26,565 nucleotides of DNA from a virus (IMGVR_UViG_3300042350_001849:1-26565); one strand, 5' to 3'; positions 12,930-25,481 are shown, counted from the first letter of the stretch. The notes: generated by a model from the letters alone, not told the origin. A program made the numbers and translations.

Positions 12930-12959
12930 TTGACACCCTTTTGGGTTATTCGAGAAAAT
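12930..12959 (+). promoter_or_regulatory. Rightward early promoter
   Basis: A perfect TTGACA (12930-12935) is followed 18 bp later by GAAAAT (12954-12959), four of six matches to the -10 consensus. It lies about 50 bp upstream of the first plus-strand gene and just before a palindrome, so it is the best candidate for the promoter of the early cassette. Confidence 0.55.
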
Positions 12960-13009: not shown

Positions 13010-13189
13010 ATGATTATCGAAGTTGAAGTAAAGAATGTGTACGGGAAAGATACCTTCTATCCCTTATGTAATCAGGCTTTGTTGCTTGCTCGGCTGACTG
13101 GCAATAAGACTTTGACCATTGATGCCTTGAAGACTATTAGGTCTTTGGGCTACGAGGTTGCCGTTCAACAGAAACACTATTCAATCTAA
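13010..13189 (+). CDS. First early miniprotein
   Basis: The product is 59 aa. It reads MIIEVEVKNVYGKDTFYPLC, followed by a helix NQALLLARLTGNKTLTIDAL and a strand GYEVAVQ. The layout is beta-strand, two helices, beta-strand with no cysteine pair or known motif. The start is chosen for the decamer CTGCTAGGAG, five bases upstream. An earlier in-frame ATG at 12941 lies inside the promoter. It is the first gene of the rightward cassette and so likely expressed early. Its function is unknown. Confidence 0.75.
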   Translation: MIIEVEVKNVYGKDTFYPLCNQALLLARLTGNKTLTIDALKTIRSLGYEVAVQQKHYSI

Positions 13190-15894: not shown

Positions 15895-16353
15895 ATGGGA
15901 TTAGATATGTATTTAAGTGCTAAACGCTATTTGTATAGAGATGCTGATGAGCCTATCTCTGATGGGATTAACGAATTACTGGGCATCCCAAGCGATAAGA
16001 GCAAACGCTTTCATGGTGCTAGTTTTGTTGCCAAAGAAATATCCATCGAAGCAATGGGATGGAGAAAGGCAAACGCTATTCATGGGTGGTTTGTAAGGCG
16101 ATGCCAAGGGGGTGAAGATAACTGCAAAGAATACTATGTATCGAGAGAGCAGTTGCAGGAGTTGGTCGAGTTGTGCCATGAAGCATTGGACAAGCCTGAC
16201 CACGAAGTATTAGAGCCTACCGCAGGATTCTTTTTCGGTTCGTATGAGAAAGACGAGTGGTATTTCCAAGACTTAAAAGACACCATTGAGGGCATTGAAA
16301 AGGCATTGGAATTACCTCAGTCTTTTGAGTTTTACTATCAATCCAGTTGGTAA
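15895..16353 (+). CDS. Conserved phage protein with MGLDMYL start
   Basis: The product is 152 aa. It begins MGLDMYLSAKRYLYR, then GWRKANAIHGWFVRRCQGGE, then DNCKEYYVSREQLQELVELC, and ends TAGFFFGSYEKDEWYFQDLK. The order MGLDMYL, W-RKAN-IH-WF, CKEYYVS and GFFFGS-x-x-YDEWY is a well-conserved phage protein of unknown function. Aromatic residues around conserved Asp, His and Cys are compatible with an enzyme, but no mechanism is known. The CTGCTAGGAG decamer precedes the start by six bases. It may begin a separate transcript. Confidence 0.85.
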   Translation: MGLDMYLSAKRYLYRDADEPISDGINELLGIPSDKSKRFHGASFVAKEISIEAMGWRKANAIHGWFVRRCQGGEDNCKEYYVSREQLQELVELCHEALDKPDHEVLEPTAGFFFGSYEKDEWYFQDLKDTIEGIEKALELPQSFEFYYQSSW

Positions 16354-16363
16354 GGGGCTAACC

Positions 16364-16594
16364 ATGAAATATACAGTTCAAGTGAATGAAACCCAGTATT
16401 GGGTTTACGAGTATGCAGTAGAAGCCAAGAACATCGAGGAAGCAATACACCTTGCTGAAGTTAAGCATTTTGAAGGGGTTCAGGCTGATGACACTGTTTT
16501 GGCTGATGCCCAAACAACGGAGATGCGTATTAAGGATTCAATCGACAAACAGTTTTTTAACCAAATCACCAACGACCTACTGGAGAAGCAATGA
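16364..16594 (+). CDS. Early miniprotein of strand-helix type (76 aa)
   Basis: The product is 76 aa, starting MKYTVQVNETQYWVYEYAVE. A helix follows, ANIEEAI-type: EAKNIEEAIHLAEVKHFEGV. It then has a second strand-helix element ending in a Glu-Lys helix (SIDKQFFNQITNDLLEKQ). The opening beta-strand, V/I-EAx-xxEEA helix is repeated in several downstream genes. AAGGGG precedes the start and the end overlaps the next gene as ATGA. Function is unknown. Confidence 0.75.
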   Translation: MKYTVQVNETQYWVYEYAVEAKNIEEAIHLAEVKHFEGVQADDTVLADAQTTEMRIKDSIDKQFFNQITNDLLEKQ

Positions 16595-16896
16595 AACAGT
16601 TTGAGATAAAGACAATGGTTTGTGGCAATCCTGATCGTGGGCAGAATCCAAACAAGCCCCCATATGGGGTTCGGGCTAAGACTTTAAGAGCCAACACCTA
16701 TGCCGAGATTCGGGATATGGTGCAGGACTGGATTGGCGATAACGATATCGGTGGTGGTAACTGGATGAATCCCCCACTGGTATTTGATGGTCAAGTAGTT
16801 GGCTATATGTCATTCAACGGCAAAGTTTGGGCTGATGTTAGTTGGACACCTGATACCAAACAAATCACATTTAAAGAGGAGCATGACCATGCCTAG
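16591..16896 (+). CDS. Early protein of unknown function (101 aa)
   Basis: The product is 101 aa. It reads MKQFEIKTMVCGNPDRGQNP, then PPYGVRAKTLRANTYAEIRD, then WIGDNDIGGGNWMNPPLVFD. A final strand-rich part is GQVVGYMSFNGKVWADVSWT. It is glycine- and asparagine-rich in the middle and probably forms a small beta fold. A GGAG ribosome-binding site lies five bases upstream. The end shares eight bases (ATGCCTAG) with the next start. No family is recognised. Confidence 0.75.
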   Translation: MKQFEIKTMVCGNPDRGQNPNKPPYGVRAKTLRANTYAEIRDMVQDWIGDNDIGGGNWMNPPLVFDGQVVGYMSFNGKVWADVSWTPDTKQITFKEEHDHA

Positions 16897-17062
16897 ATAC
16901 AGTGGAGTTTTAATCAAAAAAGAATACTTTGAAATAGATGTTTTAGCCCAAGATGCTGATGAAGCAAAAGACTTAATTTCCGAGGCTAGTGTTGAAAACG
17001 ATCCCTATGATACTGACTGGGAATTTTATGAAGGTAGTTTAGAGGAGGTTCAAAATGCCTAA
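16889..17062 (+). CDS. Acidic strand-helix miniprotein (57 aa)
   Basis: The product is 57 aa, strongly acidic: MPRYSGVLIKKEYFEIDVLA, then QDADEAKDLISEASVENDPY, then DTDWEFYEGSLEEVQNA. It shares the M-x-x-Y-x-V opening, the second strand and the DAxEA helix with the 76- and 60-aa proteins, which suggests common ancestry. GAGGAGC lies upstream of the ATG. Both ends are 8-nt overlaps (ATGCCTAG and ATGCCTAA). Function is unknown. Confidence 0.72.
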   Translation: MPRYSGVLIKKEYFEIDVLAQDADEAKDLISEASVENDPYDTDWEFYEGSLEEVQNA

Positions 17063-17636
17063 TTGGTGCGATAACAATATGTATATCAGTCATCCTGACA
17101 AAGAGATGATGACGAAAGCCCTTACCGCTTGGAACAGTGGTAAGTTTTTATCTGCCCTTGTGCCTGAGCCTGACTACACGACAGTTAAGGTCAAGCCTAC
17201 CTTTGACACCAGTCATATAACAGGCAATCCTCAACCTGATTTTGTTGATCCTGAGCAAGCATGGTGGGACTGGCGAGTTCAAAACTGGGGAACAAAGTGG
17301 GACATTGGATGGGAAGATCATCAAGATAAAGCAGAGTTAAGTGGGGATCACGATATGTTCGTAAACTTCCAGTCTGCTTGGTCTCCACCCACTGATGCGT
17401 ATGCCAAACTGAGTGAAATGGGCTACTCCATTCGAGCCTATTACTTTGAGGGGGGTGTGGGATTCTGTGGCAGATGGGAAGATGGGGAGGAGGAAGGTTA
17501 TACCCTTGACTTTCCTGAGAAGGGTTCACCAGTGCAGTGGATTGAAGAGAACATCCCTAAAGATATAAATGAAGAGATGTTTATTGCTGATTCTTATGCG
17601 GACTGGGAAGAATACATGGAGACAGAAGATGCCTAA
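17055..17636 (+). CDS. Api92-like / DUF1281 ferredoxin-fold protein
   Basis: The product is 193 aa. It begins MPNWCDNNMYISHPDKEMMT, a start typical of phage proteins with an Api92-like ferredoxin-type fold (DUF1281 relatives). Diagnostic blocks follow: ALVPEPDY, WWDWRVQNWGTKWDIGW, MFVNFQSAWSPPTDAYAKLS and AYYFEGGVGFCGRWEDG. Family function is unknown, so ferredoxin-like refers to fold and not iron binding. It is embedded in the miniprotein cassette with 8-nt overlaps at both ends. Its size and conservation make it the easiest gene of the block to assign to a family. Confidence 0.85.
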   Translation: MPNWCDNNMYISHPDKEMMTKALTAWNSGKFLSALVPEPDYTTVKVKPTFDTSHITGNPQPDFVDPEQAWWDWRVQNWGTKWDIGWEDHQDKAELSGDHDMFVNFQSAWSPPTDAYAKLSEMGYSIRAYYFEGGVGFCGRWEDGEEEGYTLDFPEKGSPVQWIEENIPKDINEEMFIADSYADWEEYMETEDA

Positions 17637-17811
17637 ATATGCCGTTTTAATTACTTGTCAAGAGTATGTAGAGGTAGAGGGCGAGAACGCTAAAGATGCT
17701 GAATGGAAAGCATACGAAGCCTTCAAGAATGGGGAACTATACATTGACCCTGCCCTTGAATTTGTCTGCGAAGAAGCCGATCTAATTGAGGAGGAAGAAA
17801 ATGAGTTATGA
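17629..17811 (+). CDS. Acidic strand-helix miniprotein (60 aa)
   Basis: The product is 60 aa: MPKYAVLITCQEYVEVEGEN, then AKDAEWKAYEAFKNGELYID, then PALEFVCEEADLIEEEENEL. The opening YxVxI strand, V-x-V-E strand and DAExxA helix match the 57-aa protein two genes earlier. Fifteen of the sixty residues are Glu. The start has an 8-nt overlap with the DUF1281-type gene and the end overlaps the next gene by 11 nt. An acidic mimic of nucleic acid is conceivable but unproven. Confidence 0.75.
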   Translation: MPKYAVLITCQEYVEVEGENAKDAEWKAYEAFKNGELYIDPALEFVCEEADLIEEEENEL

Positions 17812-17980
17812 CTCAGACCACGAAAATGTTTACATGGTAAATTTTGTATCAGGCAGAACAATCCATGTAAGTCAATACACTGTTCAAGATGTAATTGAAT
17901 ATTGTGCTGATAAGTATGAAAATGAAGTTATCAAAGAAATCCACCAAGAGGTTTATGTTATGGGGGAAGAAGATGCTTAA
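17801..17980 (+). CDS. Early miniprotein (59 aa)
   Basis: The product is 59 aa: MSYDSDHENVYMVNFVSGRT, then IHVSQYTVQDVIEYCADKYE, then NEVIKEIHQEVYVMGEEDA. It is acidic and has the strand, strand, helix, strand order of its neighbours. The start has a GAGGAGGAAGAAA ribosome-binding region, the purine-rich end of the preceding gene. It ends with an 8-nt overlap (ATGCTTAA). No family is recognised. Confidence 0.7.
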   Translation: MSYDSDHENVYMVNFVSGRTIHVSQYTVQDVIEYCADKYENEVIKEIHQEVYVMGEEDA

Positions 17981-18119
17981 ATACAAAGTTGTGATGGAAA
18001 TAACCATTGCAGATACAGATGCACCGCCTACTGATTGGCTACCAAATGTAATAAAGCAGGTATTGGAAGATAACGAAACAGTAGAAATTATTGAATGTAA
18101 GGAGGAATACCATGCGTAG
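17973..18119 (+). CDS. Early miniprotein (48 aa)
   Basis: The product is 48 aa: MLKYKVVMEITIADTDAPPT, then DWLPNVIKQVLEDNETVEII, then ECKEEYHA. A strand, helix, strand layout of the cassette type is reduced to its minimum. The start lies after GGGGGAAGA and is inside an 8-nt overlap. Its stop overlaps the next start (ATGCGTAG). Function is unknown. Confidence 0.68.
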   Translation: MLKYKVVMEITIADTDAPPTDWLPNVIKQVLEDNETVEIIECKEEYHA

Positions 18120-18285
18120 ATACGGAATGAGTGTCAAATTTACTGGCACGACTTATGTTGAGGTGGATGTGCCAAATGGTGAAGATCCTGAAGAATATGC
18201 AATGGATGTGGCTAATCCAAAAGATGTAAATAATTGGGAAATAGTTGAGGTTTACGGATTAGATGAGGTTGATCCAAATGATTAA
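18112..18285 (+). CDS. Early miniprotein (57 aa)
   Basis: The product is 57 aa: MRRYGMSVKFTGTTYVEVDV, then PNGEDPEEYAMDVANPKDVN, then NWEIVEVYGLDEVDPND. It has the same strand, strand, short helix, strand order as the 57- and 60-aa proteins. A near-perfect AAGGAGG site lies eight bases upstream, the best in the block. The 8-nt overlap with the following gene is ATGATTAA. Function is unknown. Confidence 0.72.
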   Translation: MRRYGMSVKFTGTTYVEVDVPNGEDPEEYAMDVANPKDVNNWEIVEVYGLDEVDPND

Positions 18286-18421
18286 AAGCATTATTGAATT
18301 GATCAAGGAACACCTAGTAACCTTCCCTGATTCGGTAAATTCACAGTTGTGGAACGACCGAGTAGAAATCCTTTTGGAAGATATAAAAGAGTTCGATAGC
18401 AAGGAAGAAGAACCTAAGTAA
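18278..18421 (+). CDS. Last early miniprotein (47 aa)
   Basis: The product is 47 aa: MIKSIIELIKEHLVTFPDSV, then NSQLWNDRVEILLEDIKEFD, then SKEEEPK. It is helical and not of the strand-helix pattern. It starts inside an 8-nt overlap with the previous gene and ends 23 nt before a strong terminator, so it is the last gene of the cassette. Function is unknown. Confidence 0.65.
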   Translation: MIKSIIELIKEHLVTFPDSVNSQLWNDRVEILLEDIKEFDSKEEEPK

Positions 18422-18444: not shown

Positions 18445-18473
18445 CCCCCAGTGCAGTCTGACTGGGGGTTTTT
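18445..18473 (+). terminator. Rho-independent terminator of the early cassette
   Basis: CCCCCAGT (18445-18452) pairs perfectly with ACTGGGGG (18461-18468) around an 8-nt loop and is followed by five U residues. It is directional for the plus strand, because no U-run follows on the other side. It insulates the leftward replication genes from the cassette. Confidence 0.92.
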
Positions 18474-22477: not shown

Positions 22478-22777
22478 CTATTTTACGTCAATATGGCCGT
22501 TTTCGAAGAGCCAGCCTATCGTGCCGCGGTGCGCCTCTTCCCAGGACTCGACCCGCTCGGCCTTGGACATCTTGGTTCCCTGATCTAGTTCCATATGGCA
22601 ACGGTAACATAATGCTGCAATGCGGTAATCATGCGCTTTCAGCCCTCTGCCCTTGCCGTCCCGCAGCTGATTAGAGTGCGCAGCCACCACCGTACCATCC
22701 TGATTTCCACAGGCTTGGCATGGAGACTGGCGAACCAGCTCCAGCAGCGCCTTATTTCGGTAGATGATTTGACTCAT
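22478..22777 (-). CDS. YbcO-like HNH nuclease (DUF1364 type)
   Basis: The product is 99 aa from the ATG at 22777; a longer frame to 22900 lies inside the methyltransferase gene. The zinc/HNH pattern is Cys20 and Cys23 in CQACGNQDGTVVAAHSNQ, with His34. Then come the KGRGLKAHDYR segment and Cys57, Cys60 and His61 in ALCYRCHMELDQG. The C-terminus is EEAHRGTIGWLFENGH. These blocks match YbcO/DUF1364 phage nucleases, proposed to act in recombination or DNA processing. Start overlap with the methyltransferase is 26 nt and there is no strong ribosome-binding site, so translation probably depends on the upstream gene. Confidence 0.88.
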   Translation of the reverse strand: MSQIIYRNKALLELVRQSPCQACGNQDGTVVAAHSNQLRDGKGRGLKAHDYRIAALCYRCHMELDQGTKMSKAERVESWEEAHRGTIGWLFENGHIDVK

Positions 22778-23492
22778 ATTTAGGATGCTTTGCCAGATTG
22801 TTCTCGCCGAGCTGCTGTATTTGATAGCCCAGCCCCTCAAGGTAGTCAAGCAAGGCTTTACGTTTCTCTTGATACCATGGCTTCCATGTCCAGGCTTCAA
22901 AGATAATAGGCGGGTAATTGTTGGCTTTGATGGTTTCTAAGCCGCCTTGCAAGACTTCTAGCTCATGGCCTTCTACGTCAATCTTGATTAACTTGACATC
23001 GCTAAAGGCAAAGAAATCCAGCGGTACTAAGTCAATCTTATTGGTAACGCTGGTTGTAGCGCATTCGTACTCATTACTGCGGACTTCCGTGTCAATACTA
23101 AAGGCGCCGATATTAGTCTCTTTGGCGTAATCAGGCATGACAAGGTTAAGCTGATCGTCCTTATTAGATAGGGCTAACTCATATGTGTAAACATTGTCTA
23201 AGCTGTTAATGATGATATTGGCGCAGAGCTGGTAGTTAATAATCCGCTGTGGTTCAAAGGCATGGAACTTTAACTTGGGAATCTTACGTGCCAAAGGTAC
23301 GCAAAATGTTCCAAGATTGGCTCCAATGTCCAAAACCGTGCCACTTGGCTCGTTTATAAGCAGCTTCAAGGCCAGCTGGTGTATATCGTTTTCGTACAGC
23401 TCCTTCTTTAGGTGATTCGATATGAGATCACTGCCATTAAATACTAGAAACTGGGTTCCATCAACTTTTATTAGTTGGCAATTAGGTAACAT
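22752..23492 (-). CDS. FkbM-family SAM-dependent methyltransferase
   Basis: The product is 246 aa. The SAM-binding motif is VLDIGANLGTF (53-63), followed by the acidic FEPQ (79-82) that holds the ribose. The FkbM signature is LIKIDVEGHELEVLQGG (168-184). FkbM enzymes methylate sugars or other hydroxyls on secreted or surface molecules, so the target here may be a glycan. It starts with a TAATG overlap and ends 26 nt into the HNH gene. The glycosyltransferase four genes upstream may supply the substrate (inference). Confidence 0.92.
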   Translation of the reverse strand: MLPNCQLIKVDGTQFLVFNGSDLISNHLKKELYENDIHQLALKLLINEPSGTVLDIGANLGTFCVPLARKIPKLKFHAFEPQRIINYQLCANIIINSLDNVYTYELALSNKDDQLNLVMPDYAKETNIGAFSIDTEVRSNEYECATTSVTNKIDLVPLDFFAFSDVKLIKIDVEGHELEVLQGGLETIKANNYPPIIFEAWTWKPWYQEKRKALLDYLEGLGYQIQQLGENNLAKHPKYESNHLPK

Positions 23493-23749
23493 TATTTACT
23501 CCTGTTTTTTGTAGAATATCTAGGTGTGTTGATCCGCTCAAAACAGGCCGTACACTTCCACCTGTTAATCTTGCCCGCCTGAATCATCTTGCCGTAGTCT
23601 GCTGGTCGCATGACCTGGCAGCTGGTGCAATAACGCTTATTGGCAACATTAGCCTCGGCTGGCTCGATGATTGTTACCATCCCAGCAAACGGGATAGGCT
23701 CTACGTTAATGGTTACGCTGCCGTTTTCCTCTTGTATTAGTTTATTCAT
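23492..23749 (-). CDS. Small zinc-ribbon protein
   Basis: The product is 85 aa from the ATG at 23749. That start gives an 8-nt overlap (ATGAATAA) with the previous gene, and the frame to 23806 would run inside that gene. Two CxxC pairs, Cys41/Cys44 (RYCTSCQ) and Cys66/Cys69 (WKCTACF), 22 residues apart, form a zinc-ribbon pattern. The N-terminal half is acidic and strand-like, the C-terminus basic (TPRYSTKNRSK). Nucleic-acid binding is likely from the basic tail, but no family is recognised. Confidence 0.8.
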   Translation of the reverse strand: MNKLIQEENGSVTINVEPIPFAGMVTIIEPAEANVANKRYCTSCQVMRPADYGKMIQAGKINRWKCTACFERINTPRYSTKNRSK

Positions 23750-24383
23750 CTCTTTTAATCTCCTCAAAGTTATAAAACCACTCGTCTTTGGCGCTCCATT
23801 TGGCATGGTTCTCTACGCTATAAATCTCTGTGGGTATCTTAAAGTCTGGTATTTTGAGTACGGCAGGAACCAGCGATACGTCATACCAAAGGCAACGGTT
23901 ATTGGGTTGGCAGGCAAATTGCCCATTATCCAGCTTAATAAAGTTGTACGACTTATGTTCCTCGACACCCTCACTAAAGCTAGTATCTAGGCGGTTTGCA
24001 TCAGGGCTGGCAAAGTCAATGGTAAATAAGTAATTACCAAAGTGAAACTGTTTGTCCTTGCCAAAGAACTTAACCTTCAGACCGCGTAGATTTGACTTCT
24101 CAATTACCGCCATATCGTAGGATAGGCAGTCCCATATCTGTAGATGGTCTAAGGGTAGCGGCTCGGCTACTTCTTTCCATACATAGGCATGGATTGGTAG
24201 CTTGTCGTACAACGCCCCGTAGTTAGTTAGCATCGACTCGATACGAAACGCTTGACCCTTGATTGCCTTGGCAGTCATCCACACACAAGGCTCTAGTTCT
24301 CCATGTCCCTTCTCGTGATTATAGAGAAACTCCCTGCGCACAAAGCATTTAACTGGCGGGATGTTAGCGACTAGGAATGTCAT
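23742..24383 (-). CDS. Conserved phage protein of unknown function (213 aa)
   Basis: The product is 213 aa, with MTFLVANIPPVKCFVRREFL, then YNHEKGHGELEPCVWMTAKA, then ALYDKLPIHAYVWKEVAEPL. Later blocks are LQIWDCLSYDMAVIEKSNL, then DTSFSEGVEEHKSYNFIKLD. I recognise this arrangement (PPVKCFVR, KGHGE, LPLDxLQxWDCLSY, HKSYNFI-LDNGQF) as a widespread protein of aquatic phage genomes without known function. It lacks membrane segments or a catalytic signature. It overlaps the upstream gene by 4 nt (ATGA). Confidence 0.85.
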   Translation of the reverse strand: MTFLVANIPPVKCFVRREFLYNHEKGHGELEPCVWMTAKAIKGQAFRIESMLTNYGALYDKLPIHAYVWKEVAEPLPLDHLQIWDCLSYDMAVIEKSNLRGLKVKFFGKDKQFHFGNYLFTIDFASPDANRLDTSFSEGVEEHKSYNFIKLDNGQFACQPNNRCLWYDVSLVPAVLKIPDFKIPTEIYSVENHAKWSAKDEWFYNFEEIKRDE

Positions 24384-24706
24384 TTCTCTTGAGCCTTTCT
24401 TAGTATTGCTCTAGCAAAATCAATTGTGTTTAACTTACCTTTGCGGTCTGTGTATGCTTTAGCAAACCAATTTATCTGCTCATCTGTTAGTGTCTTAAAC
24501 GCTGGCTTGTAGATGGTTGTGCCACATTGTAGGCAGATTGATTCATAGTTTGAAAACCTGTCTTTTGCTTTTGATTCCCTTGCTGGATGGGTGTAGAGTG
24601 GAACTTTATCCATCTGCGCTATGGTTGGTGTATGCCATGTTATAGGCTCTGCCCACTCTAGCTTACGTTCTTCTACATTGATGTAGGCTAATGGCTTGAT
24701 GGTCAT
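24380..24706 (-). CDS. Phage protein with VPLYTHP motif
   Basis: The product is 108 aa. It begins MTIKPLAYINVEERKLEWAE, then MDKVPLYTHPARE. A single CxxC pair (Cys58, Cys61 in ICLQCG) follows, then a helical end TDEQINWFAKAYTDRKGK and FARAILRKAQEK. Proteins with the VPLYTHP block and a C-terminal helix of this type occur in many phages as short proteins of unknown role. It begins 2 nt after the glycosyltransferase stop and overlaps the next gene as ATGA. Confidence 0.8.
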   Translation of the reverse strand: MTIKPLAYINVEERKLEWAEPITWHTPTIAQMDKVPLYTHPARESKAKDRFSNYESICLQCGTTIYKPAFKTLTDEQINWFAKAYTDRKGKLNTIDFARAILRKAQEK

Positions 24707-24707
24707 C

Positions 24708-25481
24708 TTAACTCCTTGGTAAAGTACCGCTAAAGTTATACGTACCGCTATGGGTTAGATTTGCCCAAGGTGCGGCATAGACTTTATAACCCTGCTGACG
24801 TGCAATCTTGCAGAAGTGGTAGTCCTCTGAGAGTAGACGGTTGGATACCTCGTCAATACTGGTGGCAAAGTATTCATGGATGATCTTCTTGACTGGGTTC
24901 TTATCTACAATCAGAATCATGTCGTTGGTATACGTTGGCACAGTAGGTTTAAGTGTTTCAAACACCTCACGTTTAATTAACATAAAGCCTGTACCGCCGT
25001 TGTCAATCTCCATCGGCTCATTGATACTGCCTGTTGTTTCGTGTACACCCCCAACTAAGTTCACCACAAACGAGCCTGTGTAGTTGGGTAAGTCTTTGTA
25101 GTCCACACCCTTCTTGACTGCATCGGATACTAACTGCCAGTTGATTTCTTTCTTGGGGTACAAACCGCAGATAATGTCTTTGTCTGCGTCAATCATACGC
25201 ACGATGTCTTTTGGGTCAAAGCTAATGTCCGCATCAATAAACATCAGGTGTGTAGCATCTGACTGCATAAAGTCATAAGCCATACCGTTACGAGCACGGG
25301 TAATCAAAGACTCATTCATCATGTACGAGTAATACATTTGGATATTGCGTGGTTGAAACGTCTGCACACAGTTAAGAATACCCATGGTGTAGCCGCCTAC
25401 GCACATACCACCATACATTGGTGTAGCTATAAATAACTTAGCGGGTTTCTTTGGCTCGATTGCTTCTACGTTTTCTAACAT
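24708..25481 (-). CDS. GT-A type glycosyltransferase
   Basis: The product is 257 aa. A FIATPMYGG opening (17-25) precedes SLITRARNGMAYDFMQSDAT and the metal-binding DAD at 83-85 in HLMFIDADISFDP. A later GGTGFMLIKREVFE block and a LLSEDYHFCKIARQQGYKVY block match acceptor and donor-closing segments of GT-A (family 2-like) enzymes. It would transfer sugars to virion, cell-surface or DNA substrates; which one is not determinable. The AAAGGT site is eight bases upstream. Confidence 0.88.
   Translation of the reverse strand: MLENVEAIEPKKPAKLFIATPMYGGMCVGGYTMGILNCVQTFQPRNIQMYYSYMMNESLITRARNGMAYDFMQSDATHLMFIDADISFDPKDIVRMIDADKDIICGLYPKKEINWQLVSDAVKKGVDYKDLPNYTGSFVVNLVGGVHETTGSINEPMEIDNGGTGFMLIKREVFETLKPTVPTYTNDMILIVDKNPVKKIIHEYFATSIDEVSNRLLSEDYHFCKIARQQGYKVYAAPWANLTHSGTYNFSGTLPRS

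Follow-up and report, generated by a model that had tools for sequence, protein, structure and literature searches.

The origin of mosaicism in phage genomes is an old question. Short conserved boundary sequences between the modules of mosaic phages have been proposed, yet they were unidentifiable at most borders (PMC3029335). In cluster K mycobacteriophages, many genes are preceded by start-associated sequences (SAS; PMC3203893). Phage recombinases of the Rad52-like kind, among them Erf of phage D3, recombine sequences that have diverged and promote the mosaicism of temperate coliphages, and recombinases of the Erf type work on short, diverged homology (PMC3945230). The locus described here is a cassette of nine genes whose neighbours are commonly joined by one stop/start octamer. 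Many unrelated genes carry this junction, related phages have the genes in permuted order and with different content, homology tends to stop at the junctions, and the reading frames remain intact. We consider it likely that the cassette is a shuffling array of accessory genes, in which interchangeable, translationally coupled small genes are exchanged at the shared junction.

Composition and surroundings of the cassette

The window, that is, the whole stretch of 26,565 nucleotides that was analysed, is probably a viral fragment with an incomplete record. The named phages closest to it by terminase are the Pelagibacter phages HTVC027P and HTVC023P and phage 023Pt_psg01 (52–60%; 55% for HTVC027P), and the annotation of the first 18 kb of HTVC027P does not contain a mini-gene run of this kind. 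The cassette forms the distal part of a longer plus-strand gene run that begins at 13010; a promoter-like site ahead of this operon (12930–12959) did not rise above chance. Its left border, gA0 (MGLDMYLS...), belongs to a widespread unannotated phage family. A tblastn search against 50,697 records of named phages found neither gA0 nor a g5-type gene. On the right, a hairpin with a T run is, judging from its sequence, a likely terminator between the cassette and a convergent Toprim gene (Table 1). Two minus-strand regions of the window were observed in addition. Neighbouring small proteins at 674–2297 have a C-terminal motif like GGKVSSASKRADGCAxKGKTKGxMV in common and look as though a tail segment had passed by duplication from one gene to the next, and an FkbM-type methyltransferase (E 6e-16), an Anp1-like (glycosyltransferase) match and a YbcO/DUF968-like putative nuclease are clustered at 22478–25481.

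Table 1 Features of the cassette and its borders (positions counted from the first base of the window)
Feature	Position	Strand	Description
gA0	15895..16353	+	152 aa; left border of cassette; anchor; 328 IMG/VR relatives by one scan
g1	16364..16594	+	76 aa; superfamily member; homologues 48–93% in related contigs
g2	16591..16896	+	101 aa; separate family, no known relative; homologues 98% and 60%
Junction g2/g3 ATGCCTAG	16889..16896	+	8-nt stop/start overlap
g3	16889..17062	+	57 aa; superfamily member; iterated HMM from g5, E 4e-6
Junction g3/g4 ATGCCTAA	17055..17062	+	8-nt overlap
g4	17055..17636	+	193 aa; Api92-like/DUF1281_C domain protein; PF18406
Junction g4/g5 ATGCCTAA	17629..17636	+	8-nt overlap; blocks shared with L027 and L028 stop here on both sides
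g5	17629..17811	+	60 aa; core member of superfamily
g6	17801..17980	+	59 aa; MSYDSD family, a separate one with about 50 members; 66 IMG/VR loci
Junction g6/g7 ATGCTTAA	17973..17980	+	8-nt overlap
g7	17973..18119	+	48 aa; rare family, 3 members in cassettes examined; homologues 77–86%
Junction g7/g8 ATGCGTAG	18112..18119	+	8-nt overlap
g8	18112..18285	+	57 aa; divergent superfamily member; 41 loci
Junction g8/g9 ATGATTAA	18278..18285	+	8-nt overlap
g9	18278..18421	+	47 aa; last gene; helical by residue pattern; homologues 41–79%
Hairpin CCCCCAGT-GCAGTCTG-ACTGGGGG, then TTTTT	18445..18473	+	sequence; stem found by scan

The first-pass annotation had described a cassette of overlapping acidic proteins with one DUF1281-type protein in the row and a helical protein at its end, and these features were all recovered. 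Nine packed plus-strand genes lie head to tail from 16364 to 18421, with overlaps of 4, 8, 8, 8, 11, 8, 8 and 8 nt in order from g1 to g9; the 101-aa gene g2 had been missed. Conservation of the frames in related phages, on which that annotation had staked its case, was likewise found for every one of the nine. Because homologues are present in related viral contigs and dN/dS ranges from 0.06 to 0.38 (0.07 for g2), all nine are judged to be genuine genes under purifying selection, and the same two lines of evidence rule out chance ORFs.

With the exception of g4, the cassette proteins all score below the family cut-offs of Pfam and NCBIfam. The protein g4 resembles the Api92-like/DUF1281_C family (PF18406) in a C-terminal ferredoxin-like domain that scores above the cut-off (30.8 bits, cut-off 22.8); it differs from that family in matching in this domain only, and the miniproteins are unrelated to it. 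Alone among the cassette members, g7 has a modest match in PHROGs, to an entry without an assigned function (E 5e-5). No relatives of g6 were found in the bacterial and archaeal genome collection, and g9 is last or next to last wherever a cassette holds it. The architecture of g1 is a strand-helix-strand domain followed by a C-terminal helix (FFNQITNDLL). In L006:4657-4869 (same contig as L014) and in L017 from 5479 on, compared with 16364–16594 of the window, the C-terminal tail '(D/N)KEFFN(R/Q)ITNNLL' of a g1-type gene is retained and the N-terminal domain is exchanged for other sequence, a domain swap in the gene just left of g4.

The net charge of the small cassette proteins is −6 to −14, g2 excepted (−2), and that of g4 is −26. 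Aspartate and glutamate make up 21–23% of the cores of the small proteins on average, versus 15% in the small ORFs just upstream. An origin of this acidity as a by-product of Shine-Dalgarno codons (GAG GAG) was rejected, since acidity extends to the cores and is present in the tails also before other junctions; the part of the acidic tails that is made by the junction is the final (N/D/H/Y)A only.

The stop/start junction and the exchange of genes

Six of the eight junctions in the window are 8-nt ATGNNTAR overlaps, three of these being ATGCCTAR, and the remaining two overlap by 4 and 11 nt. The octamer ATGCCTAA, one of the ATGNNTAA overlaps, combines the TAA stop of the upstream gene with the ATG of the downstream gene and stands behind a Shine-Dalgarno sequence; the consensus at the junction consists of GAGGAGG, about five A-rich bases and then ATGCCTAAATA. 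A junction pattern with fixed spacing gave few matches because the spacing varies. There are four copies of ATGNNTARATAY in the window versus 0.2 expected, a number reached in none of 100 shuffles, and the bare octamer ATGCCTAR, counted in the window alone, occurs three times versus 1.97 expected, which is not significant.

The strong signal of the junction comes from the comparison across phages, not from the window alone. Overlaps of 8 nt were found in 70 of the 139 neighbouring gene pairs in 18 related cassettes (42 exactly ATGCCTAA), compared with 3 of 105 pairs in the gene stretch directly ahead of the cassette in these phages and 12 of 109 pairs in phages less closely related; genes were called by a custom script with a slight bias to common overlap lengths, and the controls were called identically. 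The relatives are not independent, and the signal persists when each distinct gene–gene neighbourhood is counted once, with an 8-nt overlap in 48 and ATGCCTAR in 35 of the 96. Eighteen of 46 families start with ATGCCTAR, including that of the DUF1281-type g4, which is not related to the miniproteins yet begins at the same type of junction.

The junction also leaves its mark on the proteins. Read in the upstream frame, ATGCCTAA encodes '(N/D/H)-Ala-stop', which accounts for the frequent (N/D/H/Y)A endings before 8-nt junctions (85% of the small proteins, versus 0% before other junctions); read in the downstream frame it encodes 'Met-Pro-Lys/Asn', and for this reason unrelated proteins, g4 (MPNW) among them, open with MP. 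The shared opening that had been counted as part of a common protein plan is indeed seen, as MxKY, but this opening and the '(N/D/H)A' endings are largely derived from the overlapping junction.

Gene content and order of the cassette are different in nearly every relative. The homologues of g4 printed as DNA all begin with ATGCCTAATTGG, and across the relatives g4 has seven different neighbours on its left and six on its right. The first codons vary with the left neighbour within one family: g1 begins with MKYTVQV in the window, where it lies behind a gap, and with MPKYTVQV in L012, where the preceding gene overlaps it via ATGCCTAA; g2 begins with MKQFE in the window (4-nt overlap) versus MPKYS in L015 (8-nt overlap). 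The same holds for g9 (MIKS, MTKS or MPKS), F8 (MNSDLL or MPSDLL) and F12 (MKKT or MPKK). In L012, a whole 67-aa gene with ATGCCTA at both ends lies between g2 and g3, and g3 retains ATGCCTAAATAC, with ATGCCTAA, though the stop of the inserted gene no longer overlaps it; the CCTAA at this start, standing without an overlap, looks like a scar.

Among all cassette pairs, 51% of the 1292 ends of homology blocks are no more than 15 nt from a junction ATG, versus 10% at random, an excess that by itself is no proof of recombination at the junction, because in phages the borders of genes, as selected units, tend to bound homology anyway. The identity of g5 to genes of L027 and L028 is 92–93%, that of the adjoining g4 only 51–53%; g8 is 91–95% identical to genes of phages whose gA0 is 62% identical, and the paralogues inside the window are only 17–20% identical to g5. 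These identities argue for phage-to-phage exchange of long-diverged family members in the case of g5 and g8, and the patchy similarity of the cassette genes as a whole is best read as mosaicism. The earlier description of the proteins as 'rapidly diverging' was wrong in part, as each gene is under purifying selection and the patchiness is that of a mosaic.

An Erf-family recombinase was found in 10 of 14 records of related phages versus 1 of 15 records of more distant ones, a contrast between different phage groups and fragments and on that account only consistent with the reading of a shuffling array. No Erf gene is present in the window fragment, an incomplete record, and RecT and YqaJ were looked for and not found. 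In such an array, the last codons of each gene would hold the ribosome-binding site of the next, and each gene would end in a stop/start overlap, usually ATGCCTAA; a unit bounded by the junction at both ends could then be inserted without upsetting translation. Homologous recombination between copies of the junction would insert, remove or swap single genes, with a homology arm of about 20 nt formed by the Shine-Dalgarno sequence plus ATGCCTAAATA, a length that is taken from the consensus and not from one identical stretch; the sequence in common is short. The annealing agent would probably be a phage Erf/Rad52-like single-strand annealing protein, and after the exchange the operon would stay fit for translational re-initiation. 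A more specific and rather doubtful proposal is that ATGCCTAA and its Shine-Dalgarno sequence form a dedicated gene-capture joint, a homology arm with which phage Erf would plug in or drop coupled mini-genes; if true, this would be an integron-like variation of an accessory operon without a site-specific recombinase.

Selection for translation could alternatively be all that holds the junction in place, its likeness between genes being convergence and the mosaic being the outcome of ordinary illegitimate recombination, with selection keeping genes intact. In favour of this explanation, phages commonly have coupled overlaps, and the consensus has a strong Shine-Dalgarno sequence and an A-rich start region. 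However, any ATGNNTAR gives an equal overlap, yet the two free bases of the 8-nt overlap are CC in 47 of 72 cases; the more distant phages have mostly 4-nt overlaps or gaps, with ATGCCTAA in only 2 of their 12 8-nt overlaps; and g3 of L012 retains its CCTAA scar without any overlap. Selection for translation alone is considered unlikely on these grounds.

Homology and predicted structure of the small proteins

Six of the small proteins had been assigned a single plan (opening strand, second strand, acidic helix, closing strand), attributed to repeated duplication and divergence. An iterated profile search seeded with g5 across 3252 ORFs of the fetched loci, with reversed-sequence decoys, recruited g8 (E 3e-9), g3 (4e-6) and g1 (2e-5), with no decoys below 0.01, and defined a superfamily of 136 sequences at E below 1e-4 in these loci. 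As junction-derived starts were suspect, the homology test was repeated with the first three or four residues masked. The links between g5 and the others vanished in three rounds at a strict threshold; in six rounds, g5 and g8 joined at an inclusion threshold of 1e-3 and g1 and g3 only at 1e-2, in both cases with no decoys below 0.01. Profile–profile comparisons with the first four residues removed gave 76% for g1 and g5, 90% for g1 and F16 and 58% for g3 and F23 (F16 and F23 are further families of the superfamily from other phages), versus below 3% for the true controls, and g6 and g7 remained below 2% against all six miniproteins. These comparisons indicate that g1, g3, g5 and g8 are distant homologues within one superfamily, with g3 and g8 less strongly supported. 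A single six-member family is not upheld, since g6 and g7 were related by no test, and the likeness of the miniproteins comes in part from the joint and only in part from common ancestry.

DpnD/PcfM-like proteins (PF14207) are matched by 18 of 53 diverse superfamily members (best E 8.6e-7), whereas the window's own proteins gave no match at E 10 (Pfam cut-off 25 bits) and are tied to the matching relatives through iterated profiles. To our knowledge, no function is assigned to the PF14207 family. PPR and designed tandem-repeat proteins, the top PDB sequence matches of the profiles, were discarded as weak helix matches summed over repeats. In the proposed array, this small acidic strand-helix-strand superfamily (DpnD/PcfM-like; g1, g3, g5 and g8) would have been drawn in several times.

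Confident AlphaFold2 models were obtained for g5 (pLDDT 90.7; strand 3–11, helix 21–33, strand 44–53) and g1 (pLDDT 89.2; strands 5–16 and 43–56, helices 24–36 and 62–75). Both predict a strand-helix-strand order in which the first strand is single and long, without a hairpin; the separate second strand of the proposed plan is absent from them. Comparison of the two models with PDB folds gave nothing significant. For the g5 model the first-listed match, a non-significant one, is a protein G B1 mutant that forms dimers; with a first strand so long and unbroken, the g5-type protein may be dimeric and strand-swapped.

Local tandem duplication followed by divergence within this phage lineage would explain the homology of g1, g3, g5 and g8, and two g5-type superfamily genes per cassette, with other genes between them, are present in L027:7056-7591 and L016:1975-3619. 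Shared descent of four of the six proteins can be retained from the earlier claim, but in-place duplication is at odds with the low identity of the window paralogues to g5 and with nearest relatives that lie in other phages beside other genes; for g6 and g7, two of the six, no test gave any relation to the rest. We regard tandem duplication as quite improbable. That g1 and its kin are inhibitors of host RNA polymerase like T7 Gp2 is more improbable still and is rejected on score, arginine pair and fold: the size and acidity fit, g1 matches PF16857 weakly (E 0.025), and Gp2 aligns over strand 2 and the helix with a strand-helix motif present in both the g5 and the g1 profile (E about 0.8, database 3252), but the 15 bits of g1 lie below the cut-off of 27 bits, the Gp2 pair R56/R58 in the third strand that binds polymerase (PMC3541766) is without an invariant counterpart (R55 of g1 is Q or E in 3 of 8 homologues), and no Gp2 structure appears among the PDB fold matches of the g1 or g5 models.

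For phage proteins that are small, acidic and exchangeable, a role in host takeover or anti-defence is plausible. Tentatively, the cassette proteins might be dispensable factors of host interaction, each with a host protein as its binding partner. Pfam, NCBIfam and PADLOC gave no match relevant to takeover or anti-defence; the best in PADLOC, whose models cover defence and not anti-defence, was an unconvincing one of g6 to DdmD over a short stretch (E 0.007, 12 bits). The superfamily provides a ready list of 136 sequences for function screens.

Comparison with known systems

Shared protein ends (MPKY..., ...NA) in dense phage operons can be products of DNA joints mistaken for homology, a warning that follows from this cassette. 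No description of such a stop/start octamer was found in the open-access papers searched, a limited range of sources. Boundary sequences become visible here at the level of single genes, and since most of these phages also encode Erf, the idea of recombination at boundaries is directly testable in them. Like the proposed boundary sequences (PMC3029335), the junction is a short sequence at module borders and a proposed site of homologous recombination that would shuffle modules; it is shared across unrelated modules (18 of 46 families, 35 of 96 neighbourhoods), and breaks in homology coincide with it (51% versus 10% at random). It differs from them in being identical with the stop/start overlap, in recurring at half of all junctions within one operon and in dividing single genes, each of about 50–60 codons, from one another. 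With the SAS (PMC3203893) it has in common that a single short sequence recurs where many unrelated genes start. However, the SAS (GGGATAGGAGCCC) lies upstream of the starts, whereas the cassette junction spans the start codon, the first three codons and the stop of the neighbouring gene, and writes itself into both proteins. The junction of the cassette unites the two ideas, boundary sequence and SAS, in one stop/start octamer.
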